From Alphaproteobacteria bacterium (lineage in GTDB: Bacteria; Pseudomonadota; Alphaproteobacteria; Geminicoccales; Geminicoccaceae), in assembly GCA_027045875.1 (NCBI GenBank), contig JALUAG010000082.1, positions 1-39,361 on the forward strand: DNA of 39,361 nt, in the 5' to 3' direction. Made by a program: the position numbers and the translations under genes. Shown one piece after another: positions 3,657 to 26,228 of the stretch. Positions within the stretch are counted from its first letter, which is position 1. Every line of letters starts with the position of its first letter. The notes under the pieces were generated by a model. It made no database searches, was not told the origin of the DNA, and was given only the letters and a program-made list of their open reading frames with translations.

Positions 3657-3733
3657 TGGCGCGCCCGACAGGATTCGAACCTGTGACCCCCGGATTAGGA
3701 ATCCGATGCTCTATCCTGCTGAGCTACGGGCGC
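3657..3733 (-). tRNA. tRNA-Arg (anticodon CCU), 3' CCA encoded
   Basis: The reverse complement of 3657-3733 folds as a cloverleaf. The acceptor stem is GCGCCCG/CGGGCGC, followed by a D arm with GCTCAGCAGGATAGAGC. The anticodon stem-loop is TCGGA-TTCCTAA-TCCGG, giving anticodon CCT, which decodes AGG. The T arm contains the universal GGTTCGAATCC. The discriminator G and CCA are encoded. Length is 77 nt. No phage or integrase gene lies next to it. Confidence 0.97.
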
Positions 3734-14660: not shown

Positions 14661-15306
14661 GCCGGCCGTCGGCGGCCGCTGGTCGCGACGTTCGCTCCTG
14701 CTCACGGCGGGAACGCTGCCGGTCGCGGCGGTGGCGCTTCCTGCGCTCGCCGCCCGCTCGCAGGAAGCGGCCGTCTTCATCCGACGGATGGTCGACCGGG
14801 CACTCGAGATCCTCTCCCGAACCGACAGGAGCCGGGAGGCGCGGATCGCCGAACTCGAACGGCTGCTCGAGGAGGCGACCGATCTCGACCTCATCGCCAA
14901 GCTCGTGCTCGGCGCCTACTGGCGCAAGGCGACGCCGGAACAGCGGCGGCGCTATCTCCAACTGTTCCGCAAGATGATCCGCAGGCAGATTGCGGCCAAC
15001 ATCAGCCGCTACGACGGCCAGCGGATCGAGATCGTCGGCAGTCGGGACATCGACGATCGCGATATCATGGTACGTACACTGGTCTACGATTCGAAGCGCG
15101 ACGCACCCTATCGCATCGACTGGCGGGTCCGGCATTCCGACGGCCGCTTCCTGATCATCGACGTGGTCGGCGAGGGCGTCAGCCTGCTGATCACCAAGCG
15201 CAAGGAATTCGGAGAGATCGTCAGCGCCAAGGGGATCGAAGGGCTGCTCACGGCGATGGCCCGCAAGATCGAAGGAAACGACGATCCGCCACGCGCGCGC
15301 AGCTGA
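14611..15306 (+). CDS. mlaC: MlaC/Ttg2D-family phospholipid-binding protein with twin-arginine signal
   Basis: Periplasmic lipid carrier of 231 residues for the Mla pathway. The start is taken as ATG 14611, inside the end of mlaA (50-bp overlap) behind GAGGA; no ATG lies closer to the signal. The leader contains SRRSLLLTAGTLPVAAVALP, a twin-arginine pattern, which is unusual because E. coli MlaC is Sec-exported. The MlaC domain shows LVLGAYWRKATPEQRRRYLQ, DRDIMVRTLVYDS and the segment YRIDWRVRHSDGRFLIIDV, typical of the family. It ends KGIEGLLTAMARKI. The overlap suggests coupled synthesis with MlaA. Confidence 0.9.
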   Translation: MKPSTTCCPKTPLPWNEPAVGGRWSRRSLLLTAGTLPVAAVALPALAARSQEAAVFIRRMVDRALEILSRTDRSREARIAELERLLEEATDLDLIAKLVLGAYWRKATPEQRRRYLQLFRKMIRRQIAANISRYDGQRIEIVGSRDIDDRDIMVRTLVYDSKRDAPYRIDWRVRHSDGRFLIIDVVGEGVSLLITKRKEFGEIVSAKGIEGLLTAMARKIEGNDDPPRARS

Positions 15307-15427
15307 CGACGACCCGCGATGCGACATCCCGGGGAGAACGTCCCGCCATGGTGATCGCGCGCTCGCTCCCGCATGACGCGGCCCGGCGGCCAGGGTTCCG
15401 TCCGATGTCGAAGAATTCGCCGCCGGG

Positions 15428-15459
15428 TTAACTCCCGTTTTACCTCTTCGCCCTATGAT
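15428..15459 (+). promoter_or_regulatory. CtrA-like box with promoter-like element, copy 2
   Basis: TTAA (15428-15431), seven bases, TTTACC (15439-15444), nine bases, TATGAT (15454-15459). Spacing is identical to the copy at 982-1013. No protein gene follows; the candidate small RNA does, with an expected start near 15466. Confidence 0.5.
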
Positions 15460-15465
15460 CGCCGC

Positions 15466-15572
15466 CGGCACCGAAGACGAGCCGCGAGGCTTCGATCTTC
15501 GGCCTTCGTCCTCCCTGACGTTGTGATGCCTCCCCGAAAACTTGGCCGCCGGTGATCCGGCGGCCTTTTTTT
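15466..15572 (+). ncRNA. Candidate small regulatory RNA
   Basis: A stretch of about 107 nt between mlaC and the convergent S24-type regulator, with no coding potential. It has a promoter-like element just upstream and a perfect intrinsic terminator at its end. The 5' part folds into a long hairpin (15471-15502): arms CCGAAGACGAGCC and GGCTTCGATCTTCGG around a GCGA (GNRA) tetraloop. The middle is predicted single-stranded and holds two anti-Shine-Dalgarno-like C-rich motifs, TCCTCCC (15509-15515) and CCTCCCC (15529-15535). The architecture of 5' hairpin, exposed CCUCC and terminator is that of many trans-acting alphaproteobacterial sRNAs. No known Rfam family is recognised. It could instead be just the trailer of the mla operon. 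Confidence 0.5.
15544..15572 (+). terminator. Perfect Rho-independent terminator
   Basis: GGCCGCCGG (15544-15552), loop TGAT, CCGGCGGCC (15557-15565), then seven T (15566-15572). It is the only textbook intrinsic terminator noticed in the window. It ends the candidate sRNA and possibly mlaAC read-through. Confidence 0.93.
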
Positions 15573-15623
15573 CCGCCATCCGGGCCGCGGCACGACCGTC
15601 CCCACCCGGGCCCGGCGGTCCGT

Positions 15624-16265
15624 CTACTGGCTCACCCAGACGATCCGCGACAGCCAGCTCAGGGCCTCGAGATCGAAGGTGGTCTCGCGCTCCGTGACCA
15701 CCGGATGGCGCAGCACCACCCGCGCCGCGGTGCGCCGTTCGAGCAGCCCCACCGCCAGCTCCTCGCTCCTGAGATGGACGAGGACCCGGTCGTTGCGCCG
15801 CACGCTGCTGTTGGGTGAGACCACCAGCAGATCGCCGGCCCGGTAGACGGGCGGTGCGAGATCCCGGTCGAGTTCGAGGATGTAGGCCTGGGGATCGTCG
15901 ATCTGCGGGAACTCGATCTCTTCCCAGCGCTCGCCGACGGGAAAGCCGGCGGCGTCGAAATTCCCGCCCGCCGCCACCTCGCTCAGCCGGATCGCCTTGA
16001 GCCGCTGCAGGGAGACGATGCCCCCCGGCCCCCGCCGGTCCTCGATGAGCGCCACCAGCTCGGCCATGCTGCTGCCGGTCGCCTGAAGGATCTTGGCCAG
16101 GCTCTCGGTGCTCGGCCAGCGGGCCTTGCCCTCCTTGGTCTTGCGCTTGCTCTTGTTGAACGTCGTCGGATCGAGCCCGGCCTTGCGCGCCAGCCCCGAG
16201 GGCGACATGCCGTGCATCTCGGCGAGCCGGTCGATGCCCTTCCAGATGTCTTCGTGTGTCAGCAT
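15624..16265 (-). CDS. Helix-turn-helix transcriptional regulator with degenerate S24/LexA-like domain
   Basis: Repressor-type protein of 213 residues. The N-terminal HTH covers about residues 5-65: SPSGLARKAGLDPTTFNKSK, with the recognition helix in the second half, then WPSTESLAKILQATG. The C-terminal S24-like domain spans about 92-213 (AYILELDRDLAPPVYRAGDL, LVVSPNSSVRRNDRVLV). Alphaproteobacterial relatives usually have GDSMEPVYR-type and AKxL-type motifs holding the catalytic Ser and Lys. Here those positions read RDLAPPVYR and VGLL, so both residues seem lost and self-cleavage is unlikely. Start ATG 16265 behind GGAAGG; an in-frame GTG at 16280 is possible. It is divergent from the phage-like block and faces a strong operator-like inverted repeat. 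Confidence 0.85.
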   Translation of the reverse strand: MLTHEDIWKGIDRLAEMHGMSPSGLARKAGLDPTTFNKSKRKTKEGKARWPSTESLAKILQATGSSMAELVALIEDRRGPGGIVSLQRLKAIRLSEVAAGGNFDAAGFPVGERWEEIEFPQIDDPQAYILELDRDLAPPVYRAGDLLVVSPNSSVRRNDRVLVHLRSEELAVGLLERRTAARVVLRHPVVTERETTFDLEALSWLSRIVWVSQ

Positions 16266-16305
16266 GGGGGACCCTTCCACGCATGCGCCGCCCGTCCTCG
16301 GCGCC

Positions 16306-16359
16306 CTAGGAACATTATCTTGACAACGAGGTGACCTGTCATCAGGATAATTGTCCTAG
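16306..16359. promoter_or_regulatory. Operator-like inverted repeat in the divergent promoter region
   Basis: CTAGGAACATTATC (16306-16319) and GATAATTGTCCTAG (16346-16359) form an inverted repeat, 12 of 14 positions matching. Nested inside is TGACA (16321-16325) with TGTCA (16337-16341). Leftward, ATGACA-17-GATAAT forms a plausible promoter for the regulator. Rightward, TTGACA (16320-16325) and GATAAT (16346-16351) are 20 bp apart, longer than usual. The arms overlap both -10 regions, as expected for an autoregulatory repressor. Confidence 0.65.
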
Positions 16360-16403
16360 CCCTGCCCACCATCCCGGTGTCCGCCGGCAGCCGGAGGAAG
16401 GAG

Positions 16404-16811
16404 ATGCCGCGTCTCCAGGCTCTCGTCGTCTTCGAGGACCGTCCCGAAAGTTTCTGGCTGCGCCTGCTGCAGCCGGGCTTCCGCCACTGTTTCTGCCTCC
16501 TCCGTCAGCCGACCGGATGGCTGCTGCTGGACAGCCGCAGCCGGTCCCTGGACATCCGCCAGGTGCCGCCCTGCGGCGCCGATACCCTCGCCCGCGCCTT
16601 CGTCGAACTGGGCGCTCACGTCGTCGGCCTCGCCGCCGGCCGCGGCACCGATCGCCGTCTGCCGCCGCGCCCCTTCACCTGCGTCGAGCTCGTCAAGCGG
16701 GCGGTCGGATGCGGCGATCCGGGCGTCCTTTCCCCCTTCCAGCTCTATCGCCGGCTGCGCGCGGATCCGCGGCGACTGCTCCTCGCGCGCCCCCGTAGCG
16801 GCGGTGGTTGA
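16404..16811 (+). CDS. Small phage-associated protein, possible permuted NlpC/P60-type cysteine hydrolase
   Basis: Protein of 135 residues starting at ATG 16404 behind a strong GGAGGAAGGAG. Two islands stand out: H28 in GFRHCFCLL, followed by a strand GWLLLD, and C93 in RPFTCVELVKRAVG. A His near the N-terminus and a Cys in a xCxELVxRA helix near the C-terminus is the order found in circularly permuted papain-like hydrolases (YiiX/YycO type), where the helix reads CSELVWRA. Homologues I recall lie next to portal genes in alphaproteobacterial prophages. A role in cell-wall or lipid cleavage during entry or release is inference. It is the first gene downstream of the operator, 58 bp before the portal gene. 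Confidence 0.65.
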   Translation: MPRLQALVVFEDRPESFWLRLLQPGFRHCFCLLRQPTGWLLLDSRSRSLDIRQVPPCGADTLARAFVELGAHVVGLAAGRGTDRRLPPRPFTCVELVKRAVGCGDPGVLSPFQLYRRLRADPRRLLLARPRSGGG

Positions 16812-16835
16812 CGGATGAAATAGGATTTGATACCT

Positions 16836-16848
16836 TTGTCTCCGACAA
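16836..16848. promoter_or_regulatory. Short inverted repeat upstream of the portal gene
   Basis: TTGTC (16836-16840), TCC, GACAA (16844-16848), in a locally AT-rich 58-bp gap that also contains TTGATA (16827-16832). The pentamers GACAA and TTGTC also occur at 16322-16326 and 16351-16355 in the regulator's operator region. A second repressor site or a secondary promoter is possible. The start codon at 16870 has its own TAGGAG. Confidence 0.35.
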
Positions 16849-16869
16849 TGATCCGATAGGAGATATTGC

Positions 16870-18387
16870 ATGGCCTCTGTCTCGCCGGCCTCGCTGGAAA
16901 AGGCCTACCAGACGGCCAGGCGCCGCCGCCAGCCCTGGGAGCCTCTGTGGCGCGAGTGCTTCGCCTACGCCTCGCCGGTGCGGGGCGGCGGCCTCGGGCC
17001 CGAATTCGGACCCGCCAACCGCCTGAGTGACCGTCTCTTCGACGGTACCGCTCCCGACGCCGTCGAGCAGCTCGCCGCCAGCCTCCTCGCCGAACTCACC
17101 CCGCCCTGGTCCCGCTGGTTCGAGATCGTGCCGGGAACGGAGCTCGACGCCGACGGTCGCAGCCGTGTGGCGCCGCTCCTGGAACAGGCGACGCGCACCC
17201 TGCTCGGTCACTTCCAGCGCTCCAACTTCGCCGTCGAGGTCCACCAGTGCTATCTCGACCTGGTGACCATCGGCACCGCCACCCTCCTCTTCCAGGAGGC
17301 GGCGCCCGGTACCGGCAGCGCCTTCCGCTTCACCGCCGTCCCCGCCGCCGAGATGCGCGTGCTGGCCGATGCCGAAGGCCGCATCACCCAGCAGTTCCGC
17401 ACCACCTCCATGCCCGTCGTCGAACTGCGCGAGCGCTTTCCCGCGGTCACCATGCCGCCGGGGCTCGAGCAGCGCCTGAAGGAGGATCCCGACTGTCGCG
17501 TGGAGCTGGTCGAAGCCGTCCAGCCCGAGGGGGCGCATTTCCGCTACGCCGCCTTCGTCCCCAGGGAGGAGGCACGCAGCCGCGAGGCCCTGCTGCTCGC
17601 CGAGGGGCATTTCGAACGTTCGCCCTTCATCACCTTCCGCTGGCTCAAGGCCGCCGGCGACATCTACGGCCGTTCGCCGGTGATGACGGCACTGCCCGAC
17701 ATCAAGACCGCGAACAAGGTGGTGGAGCTCATCCTCAAGAACGCCTCCATCGCCGTCACCGGCATCTGGCTGGCGGAGGACGACGGGGTGCTCAACCCGG
17801 CCAACATCGATCTCTCGCCGGGCTCGATCATCCCGAAGGCGGTGGGATCCGCCGGTCTCACCCCGCTCCAGGCGCCCGGCCGCTTCGACGTCTCCGAACT
17901 CGTCCTCGGCGATCTCCGGGCCCGCATCCGCCACACCCTCCTGGCCGACCGGCTGGGTCCCGTCCAGGACCGGCGGATGACCGCCACCGAGGTGCTGGAA
18001 CGCAGCGCCGAGATGGCGCGGCTGCTCGGCGCCACCTTCGGGCGCCTGCAGGGCGAGCTCCTGGTCCCCCTTCTGCATCGCGCCGCCGCCATTCTGCGGC
18101 GCCGCGGCGAGATCGCCGCCCTCCCCCTCGACGGGCGCATCGCCGACATCGCCGTGCGCTCGCCCATCGCCCGCCTCCAAGCCCGCGACGACGTGGGCAA
18201 CATCGTGAGCTGGCTGGAGACCGTGAACGGGCTCGGGCCGGAGGCCGCCGCCACCGTCGATCTCCCGGCCACCGTCCGCTGGCTGGCGGCCACGCTGGGC
18301 GTGCCGGCGGAGCTCGTGCGCGACCTTCCCGATCCGCTTTCGGCGCTCGCCGGCGAACTGGTCGAGGGAGACGGCGATGACGCGTGA
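16870..18387 (+). CDS. Podoviral portal protein (head-tail connector, T7 gp8-like)
   Basis: The portal forms the dodecameric ring at one capsid vertex through which DNA is packaged and ejected. Length 505 (T7 gp8 is 536). Family features are the early LFDGTAPDAVEQLAASLLAEL, the WSRWFEIVPG motif, the segment NFAVEVHQCYLDLVTIGTA, the FRWLKAAGDIYGRSPVMTAL motif and IKTANKVVELILKNASIAV. The clip/crown helices include DRRMTATEVLERSAEMARLL. All core segments of the bacteriophage head-to-tail connecting family are present without a break. It overlaps the next gene by 11 bp. Confidence 0.95.
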   Translation: MASVSPASLEKAYQTARRRRQPWEPLWRECFAYASPVRGGGLGPEFGPANRLSDRLFDGTAPDAVEQLAASLLAELTPPWSRWFEIVPGTELDADGRSRVAPLLEQATRTLLGHFQRSNFAVEVHQCYLDLVTIGTATLLFQEAAPGTGSAFRFTAVPAAEMRVLADAEGRITQQFRTTSMPVVELRERFPAVTMPPGLEQRLKEDPDCRVELVEAVQPEGAHFRYAAFVPREEARSREALLLAEGHFERSPFITFRWLKAAGDIYGRSPVMTALPDIKTANKVVELILKNASIAVTGIWLAEDDGVLNPANIDLSPGSIIPKAVGSAGLTPLQAPGRFDVSELVLGDLRARIRHTLLADRLGPVQDRRMTATEVLERSAEMARLLGATFGRLQGELLVPLLHRAAAILRRRGEIAALPLDGRIADIAVRSPIARLQARDDVGNIVSWLETVNGLGPEAAATVDLPATVRWLAATLGVPAELVRDLPDPLSALAGELVEGDGDDA

Positions 18388-18646
18388 CCGCGAGGAGGGG
18401 GGCTGGAAGGCCCTCGACAGCGGGCGACGCAAGGCCCCGCCCCACGAACTCGCCGAGGCCTTCGCGAGCTGCTTCTCGAGCCCGGCGGGGGCGATGGTGA
18501 TCGAGTATCTGCGCCGTACCTTTCTCAACCGCCGGGTGCCGCCCACCGCCTGCGACGCCGTGCTGCGTCACGTCGAGGGCCAGCGCAGCGTCGTCGCCCA
18601 CATCCAGTCCCTGGTCGAGCAGGGCCTGATCGTTCGCCGCAGCTGA
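18377..18646 (+). CDS. Bbp19-like small phage protein
   Basis: Protein of 89 residues. The central part, LAEAFASCFSSPAGAMVIEYLRR, together with CDAVLRHVEGQRSVVAHIQS, resembles the Bbp19 family named after a Bordetella phage protein encoded beside its portal/terminase genes. In such phages the pattern is F..p.G..vl..L followed by a GqRsvv.~I helix. It is helical and soluble. The molecular role is unknown, perhaps assembly or packaging. It starts inside the end of the portal gene, and the scaffold gene follows after 10 bp. Confidence 0.7.
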   Translation: MTRDREEGGWKALDSGRRKAPPHELAEAFASCFSSPAGAMVIEYLRRTFLNRRVPPTACDAVLRHVEGQRSVVAHIQSLVEQGLIVRRS

Positions 18647-18656
18647 GGATTTCCAG

Positions 18657-19529
18657 ATGACAGAGCATCACCCTTCCGAGCTCGCCGAGAGCGAGAGCCT
18701 GCCCGCCGACGCCACCGCCGTGCCGACGGAGGAGGACCTGCCGGCGGAGGGAACGCCGGCGGAAGACGCGGCCCGGCAGCAGCAGGACGCGCCGGAGGCC
18801 GCACCGACCGAGGCCGCGGAGGAGGACAGGGCGGCGGCCGCGGCCGAGCGTCCGGCCGGCGTACCCGACAAGTTCTGGGATGCCGAACGCGGCGAGATCC
18901 GGCTCGAGGCCCTTCTCAAATCCTACGCCGAGCTCGAGCGGCGGCTCACCCGGAGCCTGCCCCTCCCCGCCGACGCCGAGGACGAGGCGGCGGTGCGCCG
19001 CCTCCGTCAGGCCCTGGGCTGGCCGGAGGATCCCGAGGGCTACGAGATCACTCCCGCCCATCCGGCTCTCGAGGTCGATCCCGAGCTCAACCGGCGCCTT
19101 CACGAAGCGGGCTTCACCCGCGAGCAGGCCCAGCTCGTCTACGACCTCGCGGCCGAACGGCTGCTGCCCGCCATCGACGCCGTCGCCGAGAACTTCCGCG
19201 CCGAACAGGAACGGGAGCGCCTCGTCCGCCACTTCGGCGGCGAGGAGGTGTTCGAGACCGTCGCCCGCCAGCTCAAGAGCTGGGCCGAAGCGCATCTCGA
19301 ACCCGAGGTCTACGAAAGCCTCGCGGGCTCCTACCGCGGCGTCCTCGCCCTCCATCGGATGATGCAGGCGGAGGAGCCGGACGTCATCGGCGAGTCCGGC
19401 AGCGGCGGCGCCGGGCTCGGCGAGGATCAGCTCTACGAGATGATGCGCGATCCCCGCTACTGGCGCGATCGCGATCCCGAATTCGTGGCGCGGGTCACCG
19501 AGGGCTTCAGGAGGCTCTACGGCGAATGA
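18657..19529 (+). CDS. Capsid assembly scaffolding protein (T7 gp9-like)
   Basis: Acidic, largely helical protein of 290 residues. The first 70 residues are low-complexity Ala/Glu/Pro. The motif VPDKFWDAERGEIRLEALLKSYAELE follows, which marks scaffolding proteins of T7-like and related phages (pDKFwd..kg.i..eallksY.elE). A long coiled helix (about 160-240) leads to a basic C-terminal patch (RVTEGFRRLYG) that would contact the capsid. It lies directly before the major capsid gene, as in T7. Scaffolds direct procapsid assembly and then leave. Confidence 0.85.
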   Translation: MTEHHPSELAESESLPADATAVPTEEDLPAEGTPAEDAARQQQDAPEAAPTEAAEEDRAAAAAERPAGVPDKFWDAERGEIRLEALLKSYAELERRLTRSLPLPADAEDEAAVRRLRQALGWPEDPEGYEITPAHPALEVDPELNRRLHEAGFTREQAQLVYDLAAERLLPAIDAVAENFRAEQERERLVRHFGGEEVFETVARQLKSWAEAHLEPEVYESLAGSYRGVLALHRMMQAEEPDVIGESGSGGAGLGEDQLYEMMRDPRYWRDRDPEFVARVTEGFRRLYGE

Positions 19530-19654
19530 CCCGCGCCCGGCAGGCGGGCAACCGCTGACGCGGTCCGCCGCCCTTCCCGATGCCACCCGGCCGGCCCGCT
19601 CGCCGGACAACCCGCCGGAGGCAAGCCGCAACACGTGCAGGAGATGAACGCACG

Positions 19655-20473
19655 ATGACCACTTCGATCGACCAGGCATTCGTCAAGCAGTTCGAGCGCG
19701 AGGTCCACGAGGCGTACCAGCGCCAGGGCTCGAAGCTGCGCGCCACCGTGCGCGTCAAGAACGGCGTCCGCGGCAGCTCCACCGTCTTCCAGAAGATCGG
19801 CAAGGGCGCCGCGGCGACCAAGGCACGCCACGGCATGGTACCGGTGATGAACGTCGACTTCAGCACCGTCGAGGCGTTCCTCGCCGACTACTATGCGGGC
19901 GAGTGGGTCGACAAGCTCGACGAGCTCAAGACCAACATCGACGAGCGACAGGTGCTCGCCAACGCGGGGGCCTACGCCCTCGGCCGCAAGACCGACGAGC
20001 TGATCATCGAGGCCCTCGACAAGGCCACCGCCCAGGCCGGCAGCGACACCACCGGCCTGACCAAGGAGAAGGTGCTCGAGGCGTTCGAGATGCTGGGCGC
20101 CAACGAGGTGCCCGACGACGGCCAGCGCTATGCGGTGATCGGCTGGAAGCAGTGGTCGGAACTCCTCAATCTGCCGGAGTTCGCCAACGCCGATTTCATC
20201 GGCGACGACCAGCTGCCCTGGCGGGGCACCCAGGCCAAGTACTGGCTCGGGACGCTGTGGATCCCGCATTCCGGCCTGCCGATGGCGGGCAACGTCCGCA
20301 CCTGCTTCTGGTACCACAGGAGCGCCGTCGGGCACGCCGTCGGCCAGGACGTTACCACCGACATCAGCTGGCACGGGGAGCGGGCGGCCTACTTCGTCTC
20401 CAACTCCATGTCCCAGGGTGCCGCGCTGATCGACGAGGACGGCGTGGTCAAGATGCGCTGCACGGAGGTCTGA
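19655..20473 (+). CDS. Major capsid protein
   Basis: Head subunit of 272 residues. Phage capsid features are the N-terminal QAFVKQFEREVHEAYQRQGSKLR, the long-loop region SSTVFQKIGKG, then FLADYYAGEWVDKLDELKTNIDERQ, LGRKTDELIIEALDKA and the C-terminal domain with FYHRS-like WYHRSAVGHAVGQDV. It is short compared with T7 gp10A (345) but normal for the family found in small alphaproteobacterial podoviruses. The start is ATG 19655. AGGAG at 19638-19642 is 12 nt away, a rather long spacing. A 125-bp gap without a gene precedes it. Confidence 0.88.
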   Translation: MTTSIDQAFVKQFEREVHEAYQRQGSKLRATVRVKNGVRGSSTVFQKIGKGAAATKARHGMVPVMNVDFSTVEAFLADYYAGEWVDKLDELKTNIDERQVLANAGAYALGRKTDELIIEALDKATAQAGSDTTGLTKEKVLEAFEMLGANEVPDDGQRYAVIGWKQWSELLNLPEFANADFIGDDQLPWRGTQAKYWLGTLWIPHSGLPMAGNVRTCFWYHRSAVGHAVGQDVTTDISWHGERAAYFVSNSMSQGAALIDEDGVVKMRCTEV

Positions 20474-20475
20474 TC

Positions 20476-20745
20476 ATGGCGTACGATCCCCGCAATCTGA
20501 GTGCCCTGTCCTACGCCAACGGCTTCACGCTCTGGCATTACCGCACCGAGGACATGCCGGCCGACGTCGACAACGCCGGCTATTTCAACGACGCGGCCAA
20601 GATGCTGCGGGAAGGCGATTTCGTCTTCGTCAACGCGGGCATCGGCACCGCTCCCTCCCACGGCGTGTTCGTCGTCCTCTCCAACACCGGTGGCGTCGTG
20701 GACGTCTCCAACCTGACCACCTTCGGCGCCGTCAACGCCGACTGA
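20476..20745 (+). CDS. Small capsid-linked protein (possible decoration or adaptor)
   Basis: Protein of 89 residues, 2 bp after the capsid stop, with a strong GGAGGT. The sequence has an N-terminal YDPRNLSALSYANGFTLWHYR motif, then EDMPADVDNAGYFNDAAKML, then a beta-rich end (GDFVFVNAG, VFVVLSNTGGVVDVSNLTTF). Proteins with the same LWHYRT...GYFNDA pattern are encoded next to capsid genes in many phages. Some could decorate the capsid, but this has not been assigned here. No cysteine, no signal. Position and expression with the capsid suggest a virion component. Confidence 0.7.
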   Translation: MAYDPRNLSALSYANGFTLWHYRTEDMPADVDNAGYFNDAAKMLREGDFVFVNAGIGTAPSHGVFVVLSNTGGVVDVSNLTTFGAVNAD

Positions 20746-20783
20746 CCGACGCCGGGCTCGCCCCGGTCCCCCACGGTCGGACG

Positions 20784-20807
20784 CCGGGAGGTCTCCGGAC
20801 CTCCCGG
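20784..20807 (+). terminator. Strong hairpin after the capsid genes (attenuator-like)
   Basis: Perfect 10-bp stem CCGGGAGGTC / GACCTCCCGG with a TCCG tetraloop, in the 143-bp gap between the capsid-linked gene and tail tube A. There is no T run, so full intrinsic termination is doubtful. The position matches that of T-phi in T7, the partial terminator after gene 10 that lowers tail gene expression. Confidence 0.55.
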
Positions 20808-20888
20808 CTGCCCCGGGCCGACGCCCGGTGCGCCGTTCGACCCGGCAATCGTGGCTGCGTCCCGGCAGTCTCACCCAGGTGACGGATC

Positions 20889-21455
20889 ATGTACACGGAT
20901 GTGAGCATCTGCTCGAAAGCCCTTGTCAAGATCGGCATCCCGCCGATCGCCTCGTTCGACGAGCCGCGGGTGGAAGCCGAGGTCGCCGGCGAGCTCTATC
21001 CGACCGTTCGCGATGCGCTGCTGGTGGCGTATCCCTGGTCGTTCACCATCGCGCAGGCGGAGCTGACGCGCGATCCGGCCCTCGAACCGGCCGATTTCGC
21101 CTACGCCTATTTCCTGCCGACCGACATGCTGCGCAGCATCTCCGCCGGCAGCGGCGGCCGCGGCCGCGGCCTGCTGTTCCGGATCCGCGGCAGCCGGCTG
21201 GTGACGGACGCGGATACGGTCACCCTCACCTACCAGCGCCGGGTGCCGGAAGCGGAGTTCCCGAGCTTCTTCGTGAGCGCCCTCGTGGCCCGCCTCGCGG
21301 CCGAGTTCGCGATCCCCCTGACCGAGGCGACGGCACGCAGCGAGACCCTGCAGCGGCTGGCGGCGGCCGAGTTCAAGCTGGCGCGACTCGTCGACAGCCA
21401 GCAGGCGACGCCGCTCAAGGTCGAGGACTTCACGCTGATCCGGGTACGCGGCTGA
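20889..21455 (+). CDS. Tail tubular protein A (T7 gp11-like)
   Basis: Adaptor/gatekeeper of 188 residues joining portal and nozzle in short-tailed phages. The N-terminus VSICSKALVKIGIPPIASFD, with ICS.AL..IG, is the family signature. LYPTVRDALLVAYPWSFT (W in PWsFa) and the strand TVTLTYQRRVPEAEFPSFF follow, then helices LVARLAAEFAIPLTEATARS. Length matches T7 gp11 (196). The stop and the next start overlap (TGATG), suggesting coupled translation with tail tube B. Confidence 0.92.
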   Translation: MYTDVSICSKALVKIGIPPIASFDEPRVEAEVAGELYPTVRDALLVAYPWSFTIAQAELTRDPALEPADFAYAYFLPTDMLRSISAGSGGRGRGLLFRIRGSRLVTDADTVTLTYQRRVPEAEFPSFFVSALVARLAAEFAIPLTEATARSETLQRLAAAEFKLARLVDSQQATPLKVEDFTLIRVRG

Positions 21456-23368
21456 TGGCACGGGCGATCAGGATCCAGACCAGCTTCTCCAGCGGCGAAC
21501 TGGACCCCCTCCTGTTCGGCCGGGTCGATCTGCGGGCGCAGGAGGAGGGCGCGGCACGGCTGCGCAACGCCATTCCCCTGACCACCGGCGGCGTTCGCCG
21601 GCGCCCCGGCACCGTGCGGCTGGCGGAGCTGTCCGGAGCCGTGAGACTGGTCGGTTTCGCCGCCGCCGACGGCGACTATCTGGTGGCGCTCGCGGCCGAC
21701 CGCATCGAGATCCTCCGGCCGGACGGCGCCACCGAGGCCACCCTCGTCCCCTCGCCTTGGAGCGCCGCCCAGGCGCGCGAGCTCACCTGGGTGGCGGACG
21801 GCGAGCGGCTTCTCCTCTGTCATCCCGAGGTGCCACCCCAGGAACTCCTGCGCGACGGCGGCGGCTGGCTGCTGCGCCCCTGGCCCTTCGAACCGGTCGA
21901 TCCCTCCGATCCGCTGTCGCCGCGACGCGAGCCCTTCGCCCGCTTCGCTCCGCCCGAGGTGCGGCTGCAGCTGCGGCTCGGCACCACCCCGCCGAGCGAC
22001 CCCCTGCCCGCCGGCTCCCTGGTCGAGATCCTCCTCACCGCGCCGGTGTTCACCAACGAGCATGTGGACGGCTGGCTGCGGGTGCGCGGCGGCCATGTGC
22101 GGATCACCAACGTCCGCAGCGCCACCGAGGCGGACGGGCTGCTGTTCGAGGCCCAGCCCGACGGCCGGACCACCACCGACTGGCAGGAGCAGGCGTTCGG
22201 CCCCGTCCACGGCTGGCCCCGCAGCGTCGCCTTCCATCAGAACCGGCTCGTGATCGGCGGCTCCCGCGATCTGCCCGATCATCTCTGGCTCTCGCGCTCG
22301 GGCGCGATGTTCGATTTCGATCCCGGCACCGGCCTCGACGACGAGGCCATCGCCTTCCGCCTCACCGCCGACCGCCGCCAGATCGTGCGCCAGGTCTATT
22401 CGGGGCGACGGCTGCAGATCTTCACCGACGCCGGCGAATGGGTCGCGGAGGGCGATCCCCTCACCCCCTCCGACATCCGCGTCGCCCTGCAGACCCGGAT
22501 CGGCTCGCGCCTCGACGCCAATCCGCGGCCGGCGGAAGTGGACGGCGCCACCATGTTCGTGGGCGCCGGCGGCCGCGAGGTCCGCGAGTTCATCTTCACC
22601 GACAGCGAACAGGCCTACCAGGCCGCCGACATCGCCCTGCTCTCGCGCCATCTGGTGGTCGAGCCCGAGGACATGCTGTTCGACCGGCGGCGCCGCCTCC
22701 TCCTGCTGCTGCGTGCCGACGGCCGTCTCGCCACCGCCACCATCGACCGCAACAGCAACGTGGTCGCCTGGTCCCTCCACCGCTTCGGGGGCGAGCTGCG
22801 GGCCGTCGAGGAACTCGGCGGCGAGATCTTCCTGCTGATCGAACGGGGCGACGGCCGCTTTCTCGAACGCTGGGACGAGAGCGCGCGGATGGACGCCCTC
22901 CGCACGCTCACCGCCTCCCCCCCGACCACCCTCTGGAGCGGTCTCGACGACCTCCAAGGGCAGCGCGTGGGCGTCTTCGCCGACGGCAGTTTCGCCGGCG
23001 TCTTCGAACTCTCCTCTCCCACCCTGGAGCTGCCGTCGCCGGCGAGCACCATCACCCTGGGCATCCTCTATGCCACCGAGATCGAGCCCGTGTCCGCCGT
23101 ACCGGCGGCGGCGGGGCTGGCTCCGGATGCCCTCTACCGGCCGGTCCGCATCTCGCTCCGGCTGCACGAGACGGCGCGGCTTTCCGTCGACATCGGCCGC
23201 GGGTTGCGGGAGGTGCCGCTGCCGGCGGATCCCTTCACCGGCGATCTGTCCCTGCGCGCCTTCGGCTGGCGCCGCGGCCGCGACGGTCCCCCCTGGCGCA
23301 TCCGCCAGGAGCTGCCGTTTCCCTTCACCCTTCTCTCGGCAACCACGGAACTCGAGGTGAACCGATAA
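21455..23368 (+). CDS. Tail tubular protein B / nozzle (T7 gp12-like)
   Basis: Large beta-propeller-type nozzle protein of 637 residues (T7 gp12 is 794). Family hallmarks are the N-terminal FSSGELDPLLFGRVDL and ARLRNAIPLTTGGVRRRPGT, the WPRSVAFHQNRLVIGGSRDLP motif, then SRSGAMFDFDPG, the region FTDAGEWVAEGD and the segment FVGAGGREVREFIF. All repeats appear intact. It starts at ATG 21455 within the TGATG overlap and ends in a TAATG overlap with the next gene. No tail-fibre gene follows, so the nozzle would lack a visible receptor-binding partner. Confidence 0.93.
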   Translation: MARAIRIQTSFSSGELDPLLFGRVDLRAQEEGAARLRNAIPLTTGGVRRRPGTVRLAELSGAVRLVGFAAADGDYLVALAADRIEILRPDGATEATLVPSPWSAAQARELTWVADGERLLLCHPEVPPQELLRDGGGWLLRPWPFEPVDPSDPLSPRREPFARFAPPEVRLQLRLGTTPPSDPLPAGSLVEILLTAPVFTNEHVDGWLRVRGGHVRITNVRSATEADGLLFEAQPDGRTTTDWQEQAFGPVHGWPRSVAFHQNRLVIGGSRDLPDHLWLSRSGAMFDFDPGTGLDDEAIAFRLTADRRQIVRQVYSGRRLQIFTDAGEWVAEGDPLTPSDIRVALQTRIGSRLDANPRPAEVDGATMFVGAGGREVREFIFTDSEQAYQAADIALLSRHLVVEPEDMLFDRRRRLLLLLRADGRLATATIDRNSNVVAWSLHRFGGELRAVEELGGEIFLLIERGDGRFLERWDESARMDALRTLTASPPTTLWSGLDDLQGQRVGVFADGSFAGVFELSSPTLELPSPASTITLGILYATEIEPVSAVPAAAGLAPDALYRPVRISLRLHETARLSVDIGRGLREVPLPADPFTGDLSLRAFGWRRGRDGPPWRIRQELPFPFTLLSATTELEVNR

Positions 23369-23799
23369 TGGGCGGTATCAGCACTCTCGCCAGCCTGGGC
23401 CTCAACGCGGCCCTCCAGCGCGAAGCACAGAAGCGTGCCGACAGGAACCTGCGCCGGGAGGAAAAGCGGCGCCGCAAGGAGCTGCTGCAGCGCTTCGAGG
23501 CCGAGGCGCGCAAGTCCGACCAAGCGCTCCGGCGCAGGCTGGCCGCCGAACGGGCCCGCGCCGGTGCCGCCGGCGTGGCCACCGGCGGTTCCTTCGACGC
23601 CATCCTGCGGGGGCTCGAGAGCGAGGCCGAGCGCCGCCTCAAGGAGCGGCGCGATGCGCTGGCCCTCGACCTCGATGCCCTGAGCGCCCGCTTCGGCAGC
23701 CGGCGGCGGCGCAATCTCCTGGAGCGCAGCACCGGGCTCTTGGGTCTCGGCCGACGGGCCCTCGGCGGGTTCGGCTCGCGTCGCAGTCTGCTGGGCTGA
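23368..23799 (+). CDS. Small internal-virion-like protein (T7 gp14 position)
   Basis: Very basic helical protein of 143 residues: LGLNAALQREAQKRADRNLRR, RRRKELLQRFEAEARKSDQALRR, a Gly/Ala hinge (GAAGVATGGSFDAIL) and an Arg-rich tail. Its place after the nozzle gene, the Gly-Ala-rich hinge and the coiled, Lys/Arg-rich composition resemble short gp14-type internal virion proteins. These phage proteins form the ejection channel core. The larger gp15 and gp16 partners are absent. It is coupled to the nozzle gene by a TAATG overlap and lies 5 bp before the terminase. The assignment is from context. Confidence 0.6.
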   Translation: MGGISTLASLGLNAALQREAQKRADRNLRREEKRRRKELLQRFEAEARKSDQALRRRLAAERARAGAAGVATGGSFDAILRGLESEAERRLKERRDALALDLDALSARFGSRRRRNLLERSTGLLGLGRRALGGFGSRRSLLG

Positions 23800-23804
23800 A
23801 GCGG

Positions 23805-25367
23805 ATGGTCATCTCGCCGACAGCCGGCGGCGGAGATCCCGCCGGCGCGATGCGCCGCATCCCGGCCGCCGACCGCGCCGCCTCCCTGACCGGCCCCCAC
23901 ACCTTCCGCCAGTTCGTCTGGCTGTGGAACGTGGTCCAGCGCCTGCAGACCCCCGAGCTCCACGCCCAGATCGCCCGCTGGCTCGAGGACTGCTGGGACC
24001 GCCGGCGCACGCGCCTGCTGCTGATGGTGTTCCGCAACGCCGGCAAATCGACCCTGGTGGGCCTGTTCTGTGCCTGGCTCCTGATGCGCAACCCCGACCT
24101 GCGGCTGCTCGTGGTCTCGGCCGAACATTCCCTCGCCACCCGGATGACCCGCAACATCCGCCGCATCATCGAGCGCCATCCGATGGTCAAGAAGCTGCTG
24201 CCCGGTCGCCTCACCTCCTGGGCCGCCGATCATCTCACCGTCGATCGCGGCCGCGACCTCCGCGATCCCTCGGTGATGGCGCGCGGTATCGGCGCCAACA
24301 TCACCGGCAGCCGCGCCGATGTCATCATCTGCGACGACGTGGAGGTGCCGCGCAACAGCGACACGCCCGGCAAGCGCGCCGAGCTGCGCGAACGCCTCGC
24401 CGAACTGTCCTTCGTGCTGTCGCCCGGCGGCACCATGCTCTACATCGGCACCCCCCACCATTACCATTCCATCTACGCCGACCGGCCGCTGCCCGAATAC
24501 GGGGAGGAGCGGCCGTTCCTCGACGGCTTCGAGCGGCTGGTGCTGCCGATCTTCGACGAGCGCGGGGCGAGCCGCTGGCCCGAACGCTTCAGCCTCGAGG
24601 ACATCGAGCGCATCCGCAGCGAGGTCGGTCCCGCGCGCTTCCGCAGCCAGATGCTGCTGCAACCGACGCCGCTGCACGAGGTACGCCTCGATCCCGACCG
24701 GCTGCGTCCCTACGAGGAGGAGATCGAGGTCACCGAAGCCAACCGCACCCTCGTGCTGCGCATCGGGGGGCGGCGGATGGTCTCGGCCAGCTGCTGGTGG
24801 GACCCGGCGATGGGCCGGCCCGATGGCGGGGACGCGAGCGTGGTGGCGGCGCTGTTCGTGGACGAGGAGGGACACTTCTACCTCCACGACATCGCCTATC
24901 TGGAAGCCCGCCCGGAAGGCCCCGAGGACGACGAGGCGAGCGCCATGTGCCGCCAGGTGGCCCGCTTCGCGGCCGCTCTCGAGATCCCCTGCATCACCGT
25001 AGAGACCAACGGCCTCGGCAAGTTCCTGCCGACCCTGCTGCGCCGCGAGATCGGGAGGGCGCGCGCCGCCATCAGCGTGCGCGAGCATGTGAGCTCGATC
25101 GCCAAGGATCGCCGCATCCTGGACGCCTTCGATCCGGTGCTGGCGGCCCGGCGCCTGCATGCGCACCGTCGCGTGTGGCGCACTCCCTTCGTCAGCGAGA
25201 TGCGGGAATGGCGGCCCGGCGCCGACTGCCGCGACGACGGCCTCGACGCGGTGGCCGGCTGCCTCGCCAGCGAGCCCGTGCGCCTCGGCACCTTCCCCGT
25301 CCGCCGGGGCCTCGACTGGCGGCCCGGCAGCCGGCCCCAGCGCGCCCGCACCGACTTCCGTCTCTGA
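23805..25367 (+). CDS. Phage terminase large subunit
   Basis: Packaging motor of 520 residues with ATPase and nuclease domains. The Walker A-like motif FRNAGKST ends near residue 83, and Walker B is VIICDD (173-178). The coupling motif lies near TMLYIGTP. The RNase H-like nuclease has D333 in CWWDPAMG, E400 in TVETNG and an acidic DDGLDAVAG near the C-terminus. All key acidic residues are present, so it should be active. Type: T7 gp19-like or a close relative. No small terminase is recognisable nearby. It is the last gene of the block. Confidence 0.95.
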   Translation: MVISPTAGGGDPAGAMRRIPAADRAASLTGPHTFRQFVWLWNVVQRLQTPELHAQIARWLEDCWDRRRTRLLLMVFRNAGKSTLVGLFCAWLLMRNPDLRLLVVSAEHSLATRMTRNIRRIIERHPMVKKLLPGRLTSWAADHLTVDRGRDLRDPSVMARGIGANITGSRADVIICDDVEVPRNSDTPGKRAELRERLAELSFVLSPGGTMLYIGTPHHYHSIYADRPLPEYGEERPFLDGFERLVLPIFDERGASRWPERFSLEDIERIRSEVGPARFRSQMLLQPTPLHEVRLDPDRLRPYEEEIEVTEANRTLVLRIGGRRMVSASCWWDPAMGRPDGGDASVVAALFVDEEGHFYLHDIAYLEARPEGPEDDEASAMCRQVARFAAALEIPCITVETNGLGKFLPTLLRREIGRARAAISVREHVSSIAKDRRILDAFDPVLAARRLHAHRRVWRTPFVSEMREWRPGADCRDDGLDAVAGCLASEPVRLGTFPVRRGLDWRPGSRPQRARTDFRL

Positions 25368-25398
25368 CTCCTCCGAACCGGGGAGCGGCTCCCCGCCC

Positions 25399-25425
25399 GG
25401 CCCGCCGGTCGCCGATCGGCGGGCC
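25399..25425 (+). terminator. Hairpin downstream of the terminase gene
   Basis: GGCCCGCCG (25399-25407) and CGGCGGGCC (25417-25425) form a 9-bp stem with a 9-base loop. A smaller GGGGAGC/GCTCCCC-type hairpin lies just before it (about 25380-25394). There is no T tract. Probably the 3' boundary of the phage-derived transcript. Confidence 0.5.
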
Positions 25426-25511
25426 GTCCTTCTCCGACCGCTTGCCAGCGGCGCCGCCGGCGCGTAAGCCCCGGGCGTGCCGCCACCCGCCCCGAAATCC
25501 GGAAACGCCCC

Positions 25512-26228
25512 ATGCTCCTCTCGGTCCTGGCCCTCGGCTTTCTGATCGGCATGCAGCATGCGCTCGAGGCCGATCATGTGGCGGCGGTGGCGAGCCTCGT
25601 GGACGGGGAGCGTCGGATCGGCGGTATCACGCGCTACGGGGCCTTCTGGGGCATGGGCCATACACTGACGCTGCTGCTCGTGGCGGGTGGCGCCGTGCTG
25701 CTGGGTGTCGGCATCGGCGACTTCTTCGCCAGCAGCGTCGAACTCGCCGTCGGCGTGATGCTGGTCCTGCTCGGCGGCCGCCTGCTGTGGCGCATGCGCC
25801 GCGAGCGCGTTCACTTCCACCTCCACCATCACGGCGACGGGCGCTGGCATCTGCACGCCCACAGCCACGCGGACGATACCGCGCCCCACGATCCCCGGGC
25901 CCACCGCCACGATCACCCCGAGGGACCGCCCTGGAAGGCGCTGGCGGTGGGGCTCATGCACGGCCTCGCCGGCTCCGCGCCGCTCGTGCTGCTGCTCGCC
26001 ACCAGCCTCGGTTCGCCCTGGCTCGCGCTCCTCTACATCGCCATCTTCGGTGCCGGCTCGATCGTCGGCATGGCGGCCCTGAGCATGGCGCTGGCGGTGC
26101 CCCTCGTCTGGTCGGCCCGCTCCATGACCCGCCTCAACCTGTTGCTGCGGCTGGCCATCGGCATCGCCGCGGTGGCCATCGGCATCGACATCGCCGGGAC
26201 CTCCGCCGCCGCCCTCTTCGCGGGCTGA
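25512..26228 (+). CDS. NicO/UreH-type nickel-cobalt transporter family protein
   Basis: Membrane protein of 238 residues with about six helices. The metal-binding signature of the NiCoT/NicO superfamily, HALEADHVAAVASL (H16, D21, H22), is in the first helix, followed by GMGHTLTLL. A long cytoplasmic or periplasmic loop (about residues 100-140) is very His-rich (FHLHHHGDG, HLHAHSHADD, HRHDH) and would bind Ni, Co or Zn. The second half carries LMHGLAGSAPLVLLL. No nickel enzyme lies beside it. ATG 25512 has no strong ribosome binding site. Specificity is unknown. Confidence 0.85.
   Translation: MLLSVLALGFLIGMQHALEADHVAAVASLVDGERRIGGITRYGAFWGMGHTLTLLLVAGGAVLLGVGIGDFFASSVELAVGVMLVLLGGRLLWRMRRERVHFHLHHHGDGRWHLHAHSHADDTAPHDPRAHRHDHPEGPPWKALAVGLMHGLAGSAPLVLLLATSLGSPWLALLYIAIFGAGSIVGMAALSMALAVPLVWSARSMTRLNLLLRLAIGIAAVAIGIDIAGTSAAALFAG

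Follow-up and report, generated by a model that had tools for sequence, protein, structure and literature searches.

Within a 39,361-nucleotide contig of an alphaproteobacterium of the family Geminicoccaceae (assembly GCA_027045875.1, contig JALUAG010000082.1; the whole contig is referred to here as the window), we analyzed a phage-derived locus which lies between MlaA/MlaC and a NicO-like gene and consists of a repressor gene (15624–16265, minus strand) and a divergent operon (16404–25367). The locus quite probably derives from a T7-like podovirus domesticated in ancient times, whose head-and-nozzle operon has been kept as a particle resembling gene transfer agents (GTAs). Domestication itself is very likely, and a GTA-like function is likely on the sequence evidence. 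The best reading of its history is that the element is mainly vertically inherited and old in Rhodospirillales, Acetobacterales, and Geminicoccales. An initial annotation of the window had already suggested a domesticated particle locus; purifying selection, a family tree resembling that of rpoB, and presence in 28 of 31 family genomes support this claim on a far larger scale than that annotation assumed.

Conservation and selection in the Geminicoccaceae

The family sample comprised 31 genomes, including that of the window (3.5 Mb, 99.9% complete). The portal gene was detected in 27 of them, and portal or capsid in 28; both were missing from G005, G011, and G012, the last of which is only 70% complete. 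Gene order is constant in sufficiently long family loci (S24 regulator, orf135, portal, Bbp19, scaffold, capsid, decoration protein, tail A, tail B, gp14-like protein, and large terminase, TerL), with Bbp19 or the gp14-like gene undetected in a few. G004 breaks this order, its capsid gene being 1.93 Mb from the portal gene. The mla/nicO flank is common only to the genus of the window (two further genomes). Other genus groups have their own shared flanks, indicating that the position of the locus is stable within genera and different between them; the same-site comparison proposed in the initial annotation thus succeeds within genera and fails between them.

The ratio of nonsynonymous to synonymous substitution rates (dN/dS) was calculated by the Nei-Gojobori method for three pairs in the genus of the window and 12 pairs from other lineages. 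Within the genus, the operon genes showed values of 0.09–0.31 (capsid 0.09–0.11, portal 0.12–0.13, TerL 0.15 in one pair, tail B 0.18–0.27, orf135 0.24–0.31), which are far below 1 and comparable to the 0.10–0.36 of neighboring host genes (nicO 0.10, mlaA 0.18–0.19, apbE 0.25, mlaC 0.31–0.36). Most genes gave similar values in the other lineages, with bbp19 reaching 0.47 and the decoration gene 0.44 at small divergence. Catalytic residues of the TerL ATPase and nuclease were found in all 72 distinct proteins, or in 71 of 72 at three of the ten positions. Because these motor residues are conserved, DNA packaging appears to be what selection keeps. The locus is intact in the window and in most relatives that carry it, and dN/dS is low, in agreement with the earlier view that it is not a decaying prophage.

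Phylogenies of concatenated cluster proteins and of rpoB were built with FastTree. For 17 family genomes, 12 of 14 splits were common to the two trees, including all ten supported ones, and there was no supported conflict; 2000 label shuffles yielded at most 3 shared splits. The gene tree–species tree comparison recommended in the initial annotation therefore shows a Geminicoccaceae cluster that follows rpoB.

Distribution and descent in the Alphaproteobacteria

A capsid search of 387 genomes of the class gave a match in 97. The best matches per genome are bimodal (64 at ≥56% identity and 33 at ≤39%), and nearly all carriers have one high-identity copy. PF13547 (GTA_TIM), a marker of the Rhodobacter capsulatus GTA (RcGTA), was present in 40 of the 387 genomes and in none of the 64 capsid carriers, the window genome included (Fisher P-value = 0.001, kinship ignored). 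Based on this one marker, membership of the RcGTA group (Rhodogtaviriformidae) was rejected. A 2019 survey (PMC6821227) covering 62 genomes of Acetobacterales, 13 of Azospirillales, and 24 of Rhodospirillales reports no RcGTA-like cluster in any of them. Among the best 80 of at least 537 capsid relatives in named genomes, 77 belong to Alphaproteobacteria, two are unranked, and one is Micavibrio, which NCBI files elsewhere; by record names, the chief taxa in these 80 are Azospirillaceae, Roseomonadaceae, Acetobacteraceae, Elioraeaceae, and Geminicoccaceae. A plasmid-borne element was also considered and rejected, as 21 plasmid records contained only portals less than 60% identical.

Class-wide (45 genomes), 22 of 42 splits agree between the cluster and rpoB trees, and 17 of 23 supported cluster splits are found in the rpoB tree. 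Genomes with an rpoB shorter than 500 aa, no full-length capsid, or fewer than three long cluster proteins had been excluded, which kept 46 of the 54 with an rpoB locus. An earlier tree, built from 46 genomes including G027, agreed with rpoB in 15 of 43 splits and contained 10 supported conflicts. The rpoB piece of G027 has 523 aa and a stop in the match; this genome was then removed, giving the 22 of 42 splits and 3 supported conflicts. The G027 rpoB locus (L243), with its internal stop and odd tree position, is possibly a contaminant contig.

The capsid tree (79 sequences) places the bacterial copies, the sampled IMG/VR copies, and one fecal contig in a single clade (support 0.95), to which the podovirus Hodr, a Pelagibacter phage, is sister (0.98); other sampled phage and prophage capsids fall outside. 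According to the initial annotation, nearly identical copies in full-length active prophages would indicate a recent remnant; the best named isolate phage shows only 48.5% capsid identity. The fecal contig, MT838907.1 (L306), is an unannotated 5-kb human fecal "bacteriophage" record (capsid 57% and portal 53.5% identical), and it groups with small-genome bacterial lineages. The available part of the Mexican virome paper (PMC8361208) does not name MT838907, and we make no claim that it came from a particle preparation. In IMG/VR, 591 stretches encode a capsid relative, and the 80 retained for comparison are 63–81% identical; many of these 80 loci (L142–L221) span 12–14 kb, a length similar to that of the cluster. 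For two of the 12 IMG/VR copies placed in the tree, the distance to a bacterial genome copy is zero when given to two decimals.

The scattering of the cluster was assessed from the relative locations of the capsid, portal, and TerL genes in G004 and 54 of the 64 class carriers, 55 genomes in all (the carriers omitted were five intact family members, the fragmentary G045 and G325, G204 with a capsid stop, G046, and G076). All three genes lie within 20 kb in 32 of the 55. In eight, portal and capsid share a contig and are more than 20 kb apart (57 kb to 1.93 Mb). In 11, they are on different contigs, which may reflect assembly breaks, and in two no portal was found. TerL is absent or weakly matched in four, with G200 and G405 (match of 28%, E about 1e-7) scored as not found. 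Five of the eight scattered genomes (G004, G181, G221, G289, and G353) have an open portal gene with 51–64% identity. Assembly breaks do not account for these eight same-contig cases, and a prophage would not be expected to have its portal and capsid genes 57 kb to 1.9 Mb apart.

Some lineages show unusual arrangements. Four capsid carriers of family f63 (G093, G192, G337, and G397; 0.9-Mb genomes; L283, L284) have TerL split between separate genes for its ATPase and nuclease halves, approximately 3.4 kb apart; in L284, open reading frames (ORFs) outside the phage set lie between the halves, one of them DnaB-helicase-like by eye. In the Azospirillum locus L077 (5683–9666), GGDEF-type and histidine-kinase-type genes (by eye) separate scaffold and capsid, and several other Azospirillum loci have a similar gap. 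The relocated capsid of G004 (L323, 8126–9816) is followed by two ORFs with about three decoration-like repeats, compared with one in the window (by eye).

Gene content, control region, and proposed mechanism

Genes were called from profile, sequence, and structure matches to Pfam, PHROGs, and PDB (table 1). All particle genes named in the initial annotation are present and open. Its capsid gene was correctly identified, with the start most likely at 19655 rather than 19580; its "internal virion" gene is present, the assignment having only a weak PHROGs match. That list omitted orf135 and did not name the S24-type gene, both of which lie within its coordinates. Its "capsid-linked" gene can now be assigned to an LME-1-type decoration protein, as the AlphaFold2 (AF2) model (predicted local distance difference test, pLDDT, 90) matches the 89-residue chain H of 9eg4 with Z 11.1 and 1.6 Å over 74 residues. 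The TerL match 4bij (DNA maturase B) is presumably the T7 enzyme.

Table 1. Features of the particle locus, with positions in the window
Feature	Position	Strand	Basis
Helix-turn-helix (HTH)/S24 (LexA/CI-like) regulator	15624..16265	-	PF13443 HTH_26 above cut-off; PF00717 Peptidase_S24 just under
Control region, repressor/operon gap	16266..16403		TTGACA box, TAGG/CCTA-like half sites on both sides
orf135, predicted permuted NlpC/P60-like (YiiX-like) fold	16404..16811	+	Position kept before portal; AF2 model
Portal (head-tail connector)	16870..18387	+	PF12236 E=6.6e-129
Bbp19-like protein	18377..18646	+	PF25181 E=4e-15
Scaffolding protein	18657..19529	+	PF05396 E=1.6e-15
Major capsid protein, 272 aa	19655..20473	+	phrog_3437 E=2e-74; PDB 9eg4_A E=1.5e-29
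Capsid decoration/cement protein, 89 aa	20476..20745	+	phrog_18004; 9eg4_H structural match
Tail tubular protein A (T7 gp11-like)	20889..21455	+	phrog_394 E=4e-41
Tail tubular protein B/nozzle (T7 gp12-like)	21455..23368	+	phrog_376 E=6e-97
gp14-like internal virion candidate, 143 aa	23368..23799	+	phrog_805 E=0.015, weak; position kept in most family loci
Large terminase TerL, ATPase and nuclease sites intact	23805..25367	+	phrog_38 E=3.5e-86; PDB 4bij E=5.6e-24

As previously stated for this locus, its GC content is host-like (0.67–0.74, compared with 0.63–0.79 in the remaining window). The 28 other ORFs scanned in the window comprise 21 with host-type families and seven with no match at E ≤ 0.001. 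No integrase or phage family was found among these 28, the integrase search being confined to the window, and no convincing direct repeat flanks the locus; both absences had been noted before. The only tRNA detected in the window is distant from the locus (3657–3733). A T7-type RNA polymerase gave no match in seven family genomes, a weak negative because no control matched either.

The S24 gene neighbors the operon in relatives as well. Its catalytic Ser and Lys are lost in the protein of the window. Among 60 distinct S24 proteins, both residues are gone in 24 of the 25 from the family, the remaining one having Ser without Lys, and both are kept in 32 of the 35 from outside it. The family repressor probably still binds DNA, because it is strongly conserved (dN/dS 0.05–0.10 in the genus of the window), and is probably no longer self-cleaving. 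Loss of the Ser–Lys dyad implies that induction in the Geminicoccaceae must be governed in another way; in most other lineages, where the dyad is kept, induction is probably SOS-linked. When 21 intergenic rows of the family, representing 20 distinct loci, were aligned, many were seen by eye to have TAGG/CCTA-like half sites and a TTGACA-like box. A promoter-like scan of 15300–25700 gave a single match, on the minus strand at 16342–16314 (one found and 0.4 expected). In L284, the S24 repressor is cut down to its 81-residue DNA-binding half (15317–15562), and in L294 (G126) a GcrA-like regulator (by eye; 15242–15919) adjoins TerL on the opposite strand.

The first gene of the operon, orf135, is located directly upstream of portal in relatives too. 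No Pfam match was detected, and none of the 586 PDB matches that Foldseek listed at E ≤ 10 reached E ≤ 0.001. His28 and Cys93 are invariant across 32 sequences. With the AF2 model (pLDDT 91), the best VIA matches were YiiX (2if6, Z 6.8) and a cysteine peptidase (3kw0, Z 5.8), which we take to be permuted NlpC/P60-like proteins; the next match had Z 4.1. These values, all under 8, make the YiiX-like assignment suggestive, and we infer that orf135 may be a hydrolase acting in lysis or entry.

These features suggest the following mechanism. The divergent S24-type repressor would occupy the operator-like repeats that surround the TTGACA box and thereby hold the operon off. Upon derepression, scaffold, capsid, and decoration protein would assemble on the portal, and TerL, which has no recognizable small terminase (TerS) in the family, would pack host DNA into the heads with no specific start site. 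Tail A, tail B, and the gp14-like protein would then seal the head with a short nozzle. Lysis might proceed via orf135 and/or other hydrolases, and the particles would carry DNA to kin. Host DNA is the likely cargo, because no replication genes are seen nearby and no packaging partner is recognizable in the family; packaging of the whole element in one piece is implausible where its genes are up to 1.9 Mb apart. Particle release and DNA delivery are likewise inferred steps.

Alternative explanations, known systems, and significance

Several observations weigh against a GTA-like element kept by vertical descent. G005 and G011 live without the locus. The three supported class-wide conflicts with rpoB make transfer of the cluster between families possible. 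Among the eight scattered genomes, G077 has a portal broken in two pieces, and G200 and G405 have portals of only 40% and 38% identity along with weak TerL matches, so that these may not be orthologous. Damaged copies, some of which may be assembly errors, include tail A of Arboricoccus (L049/L086), the portals of L111 and L136, tail B of L098, and several genes of L112. The capsid is damaged in G045 and has a stop in G204; stops are also found in the portal of G152 and the TerL of G347. Parts are also missing in the family, above all a recognizable fiber. Roseomonas and Azospirillum loci add orfA (a small ORF after the repressor), a fiber with a T7-type N-terminus, matched below the Pfam cut-off in L117, and a downstream SleB-like hydrolase, and in Roseomonas and some others an ORF of about 100 residues precedes TerL, the position of the T7 small terminase. 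By tblastn, none of orfA, fiber, and TerS-like ORF was found in Geminicoccaceae loci. The T7-fiber N-terminal domain is present in 0 of 14 family genomes, as the initial annotation's missing fiber would predict, versus 6 of 6 outside. Only one of these six matches is above the Pfam cut-off, and the one in G116 is on a contig other than its capsid's; tblastn places a fiber also within the G116 cluster. An SleB-like hydrolase occurs in 8 of the 14 family genomes, not in that of the window, and only G003 and G004 have one close to the cluster. The cluster of this family is thus a reduced version, with no fiber or TerS-like ORF found and a repressor devoid of its dyad. Since these parts were not found and the SleB-like gene is rarely near, the family particle may be non-infective or reliant on unrecognized parts.

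The same absences raise the prospect that the Geminicoccaceae cluster became a non-infectious compartment for storing or exporting DNA after loss of fiber and small terminase, its TerL and portal remaining conserved. We regard this as unlikely, given that the nozzle genes are conserved and adsorption proteins of another type, or unlinked ones, may exist. Rather less likely is a domesticated killing particle, that is, a podovirus-derived bacteriocin instead of a vehicle of gene transfer. Its short-tail genes would be intact, as they are here. Tail-only bacteriocins drop capsid, decoration protein, portal, and terminase, and tailocins are tail genes without capsid and terminase; in this cluster, capsid and terminase are both present and conserved, purifying selection on capsid, decoration, portal, and terminase is at least as strong as that on the tail genes, the terminase catalytic residues are retained, and no fiber was found in the Geminicoccaceae. 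Of the two functions offered by the initial annotation, the GTA-like one therefore holds as likely and killing is less likely, as capsid, scaffold, and a catalytically intact terminase are under purifying selection.

Host-encoded capsid genes could also interfere with related podoviruses, as a phage satellite or defense island would when turning structural genes on incoming phages. This is very improbable: PADLOC gave no match for the four proteins tested, which led us to reject a defense system, the packaging motor and scaffold are retained, inheritance is vertical, and no integrase was found among the 28 other window ORFs scanned. A recent or repeated prophage remnant, intact by chance, is scarcely credible and was rejected as largely contradicted. 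The phage-type genes throughout, the few broken copies, and the three tree conflicts are consistent with it; family-wide rather than patchy occurrence, the rpoB-like family tree, low dN/dS, the single high-identity copy that nearly every carrier has, the absence of convincing flanking repeats, and capsid–portal distances of up to 1.9 Mb all argue against it.

Returning to the GTA-like interpretation, the definition of GTAs lists six features (PMC9662315) and also asks for experiment. As far as sequences tell, three of the six are seen here: particle proteins from a caudoviricete ancestor (Pfam, PHROGs, and PDB matches), endogenization often in several loci (its genomic part, from host flanks and the eight scattered portals), and mostly vertical inheritance with co-diversification (from the family and class-wide trees). 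The other three concern a cargo of mostly random host DNA, an element genome too large to be packaged in full, and delivery of the DNA into other cells. The element resembles RcGTA in its host-endogenized phage head and tail genes, vertical descent, alphaproteobacterial hosts, and frequent distribution over several loci, and differs in its phage ancestor, the locus having a T7-like portal, capsid, and nozzle. Literature searches, with preprints and most subscription papers outside their coverage, gave nothing on this alphaproteobacterial group, in line with the initial annotation's "not yet described". FpGTA, a podovirus-like GTA-like element of Faecalibacterium reported in 2026 (PMC12946183), is by its description also short-tailed, with a compact 10.5-kb structural and packaging operon. 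In contrast to the present cluster, its host is Gram-positive and it has a second operon with fiber and lysis genes; its authors likewise say that it might act like PBSX, a point in favor of a killing particle. The closest named isolate phage in the searched collection, Pelagibacter phage EXVC031P Hodr, shares the order of portal before capsid (capsid 48.5% and portal 35.4% identical) but is a complete 34-kb circular phage genome. LME-1, compared via its capsid entry alone (9eg4), has a sequence-related capsid and the same decoration protein fold, and is a phage structure.

Azospirillum lipoferum and strain B510 are reported to release suspected GTA particles with random host DNA of approximately 10 kb (Boyer et al. 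2008, as cited in PMC3899980), and the citing paper, of 2012, proposes that these particles originate from RcGTA-like prophage regions. One A. lipoferum strain (L089) carries the present cluster, making the latter a candidate alternative source. The Azospirillum particles are reportedly long-tailed, which would speak against such a link.

A broader reading, which as a whole we favor only slightly, is that the cluster constitutes a second, independent, and ancient alphaproteobacterial GTA system of single T7-like podovirus origin. It would replace the RcGTA type in Rhodospirillales (with Azospirillaceae), Acetobacterales, Geminicoccales, and several small-genome families, persist even in 0.9-Mb genomes, and have been rewired in Geminicoccales with a non-cleavable repressor and a fiber-less particle. 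What is new here is a GTA-like group from an independent phage ancestor with a wide distribution, GTAs as such being already known. The finding carries a warning that viral databases probably list these host loci as viruses. It also provides candidate GTA genes for several orders in which the 2019 survey found no RcGTA-like clusters, including cultured Azospirillum and Geminicoccus. With an independently domesticated phage that has a different capsid, motor, and tail, traits shared with RcGTA, such as scattered genes and host control, would become testable as convergence.

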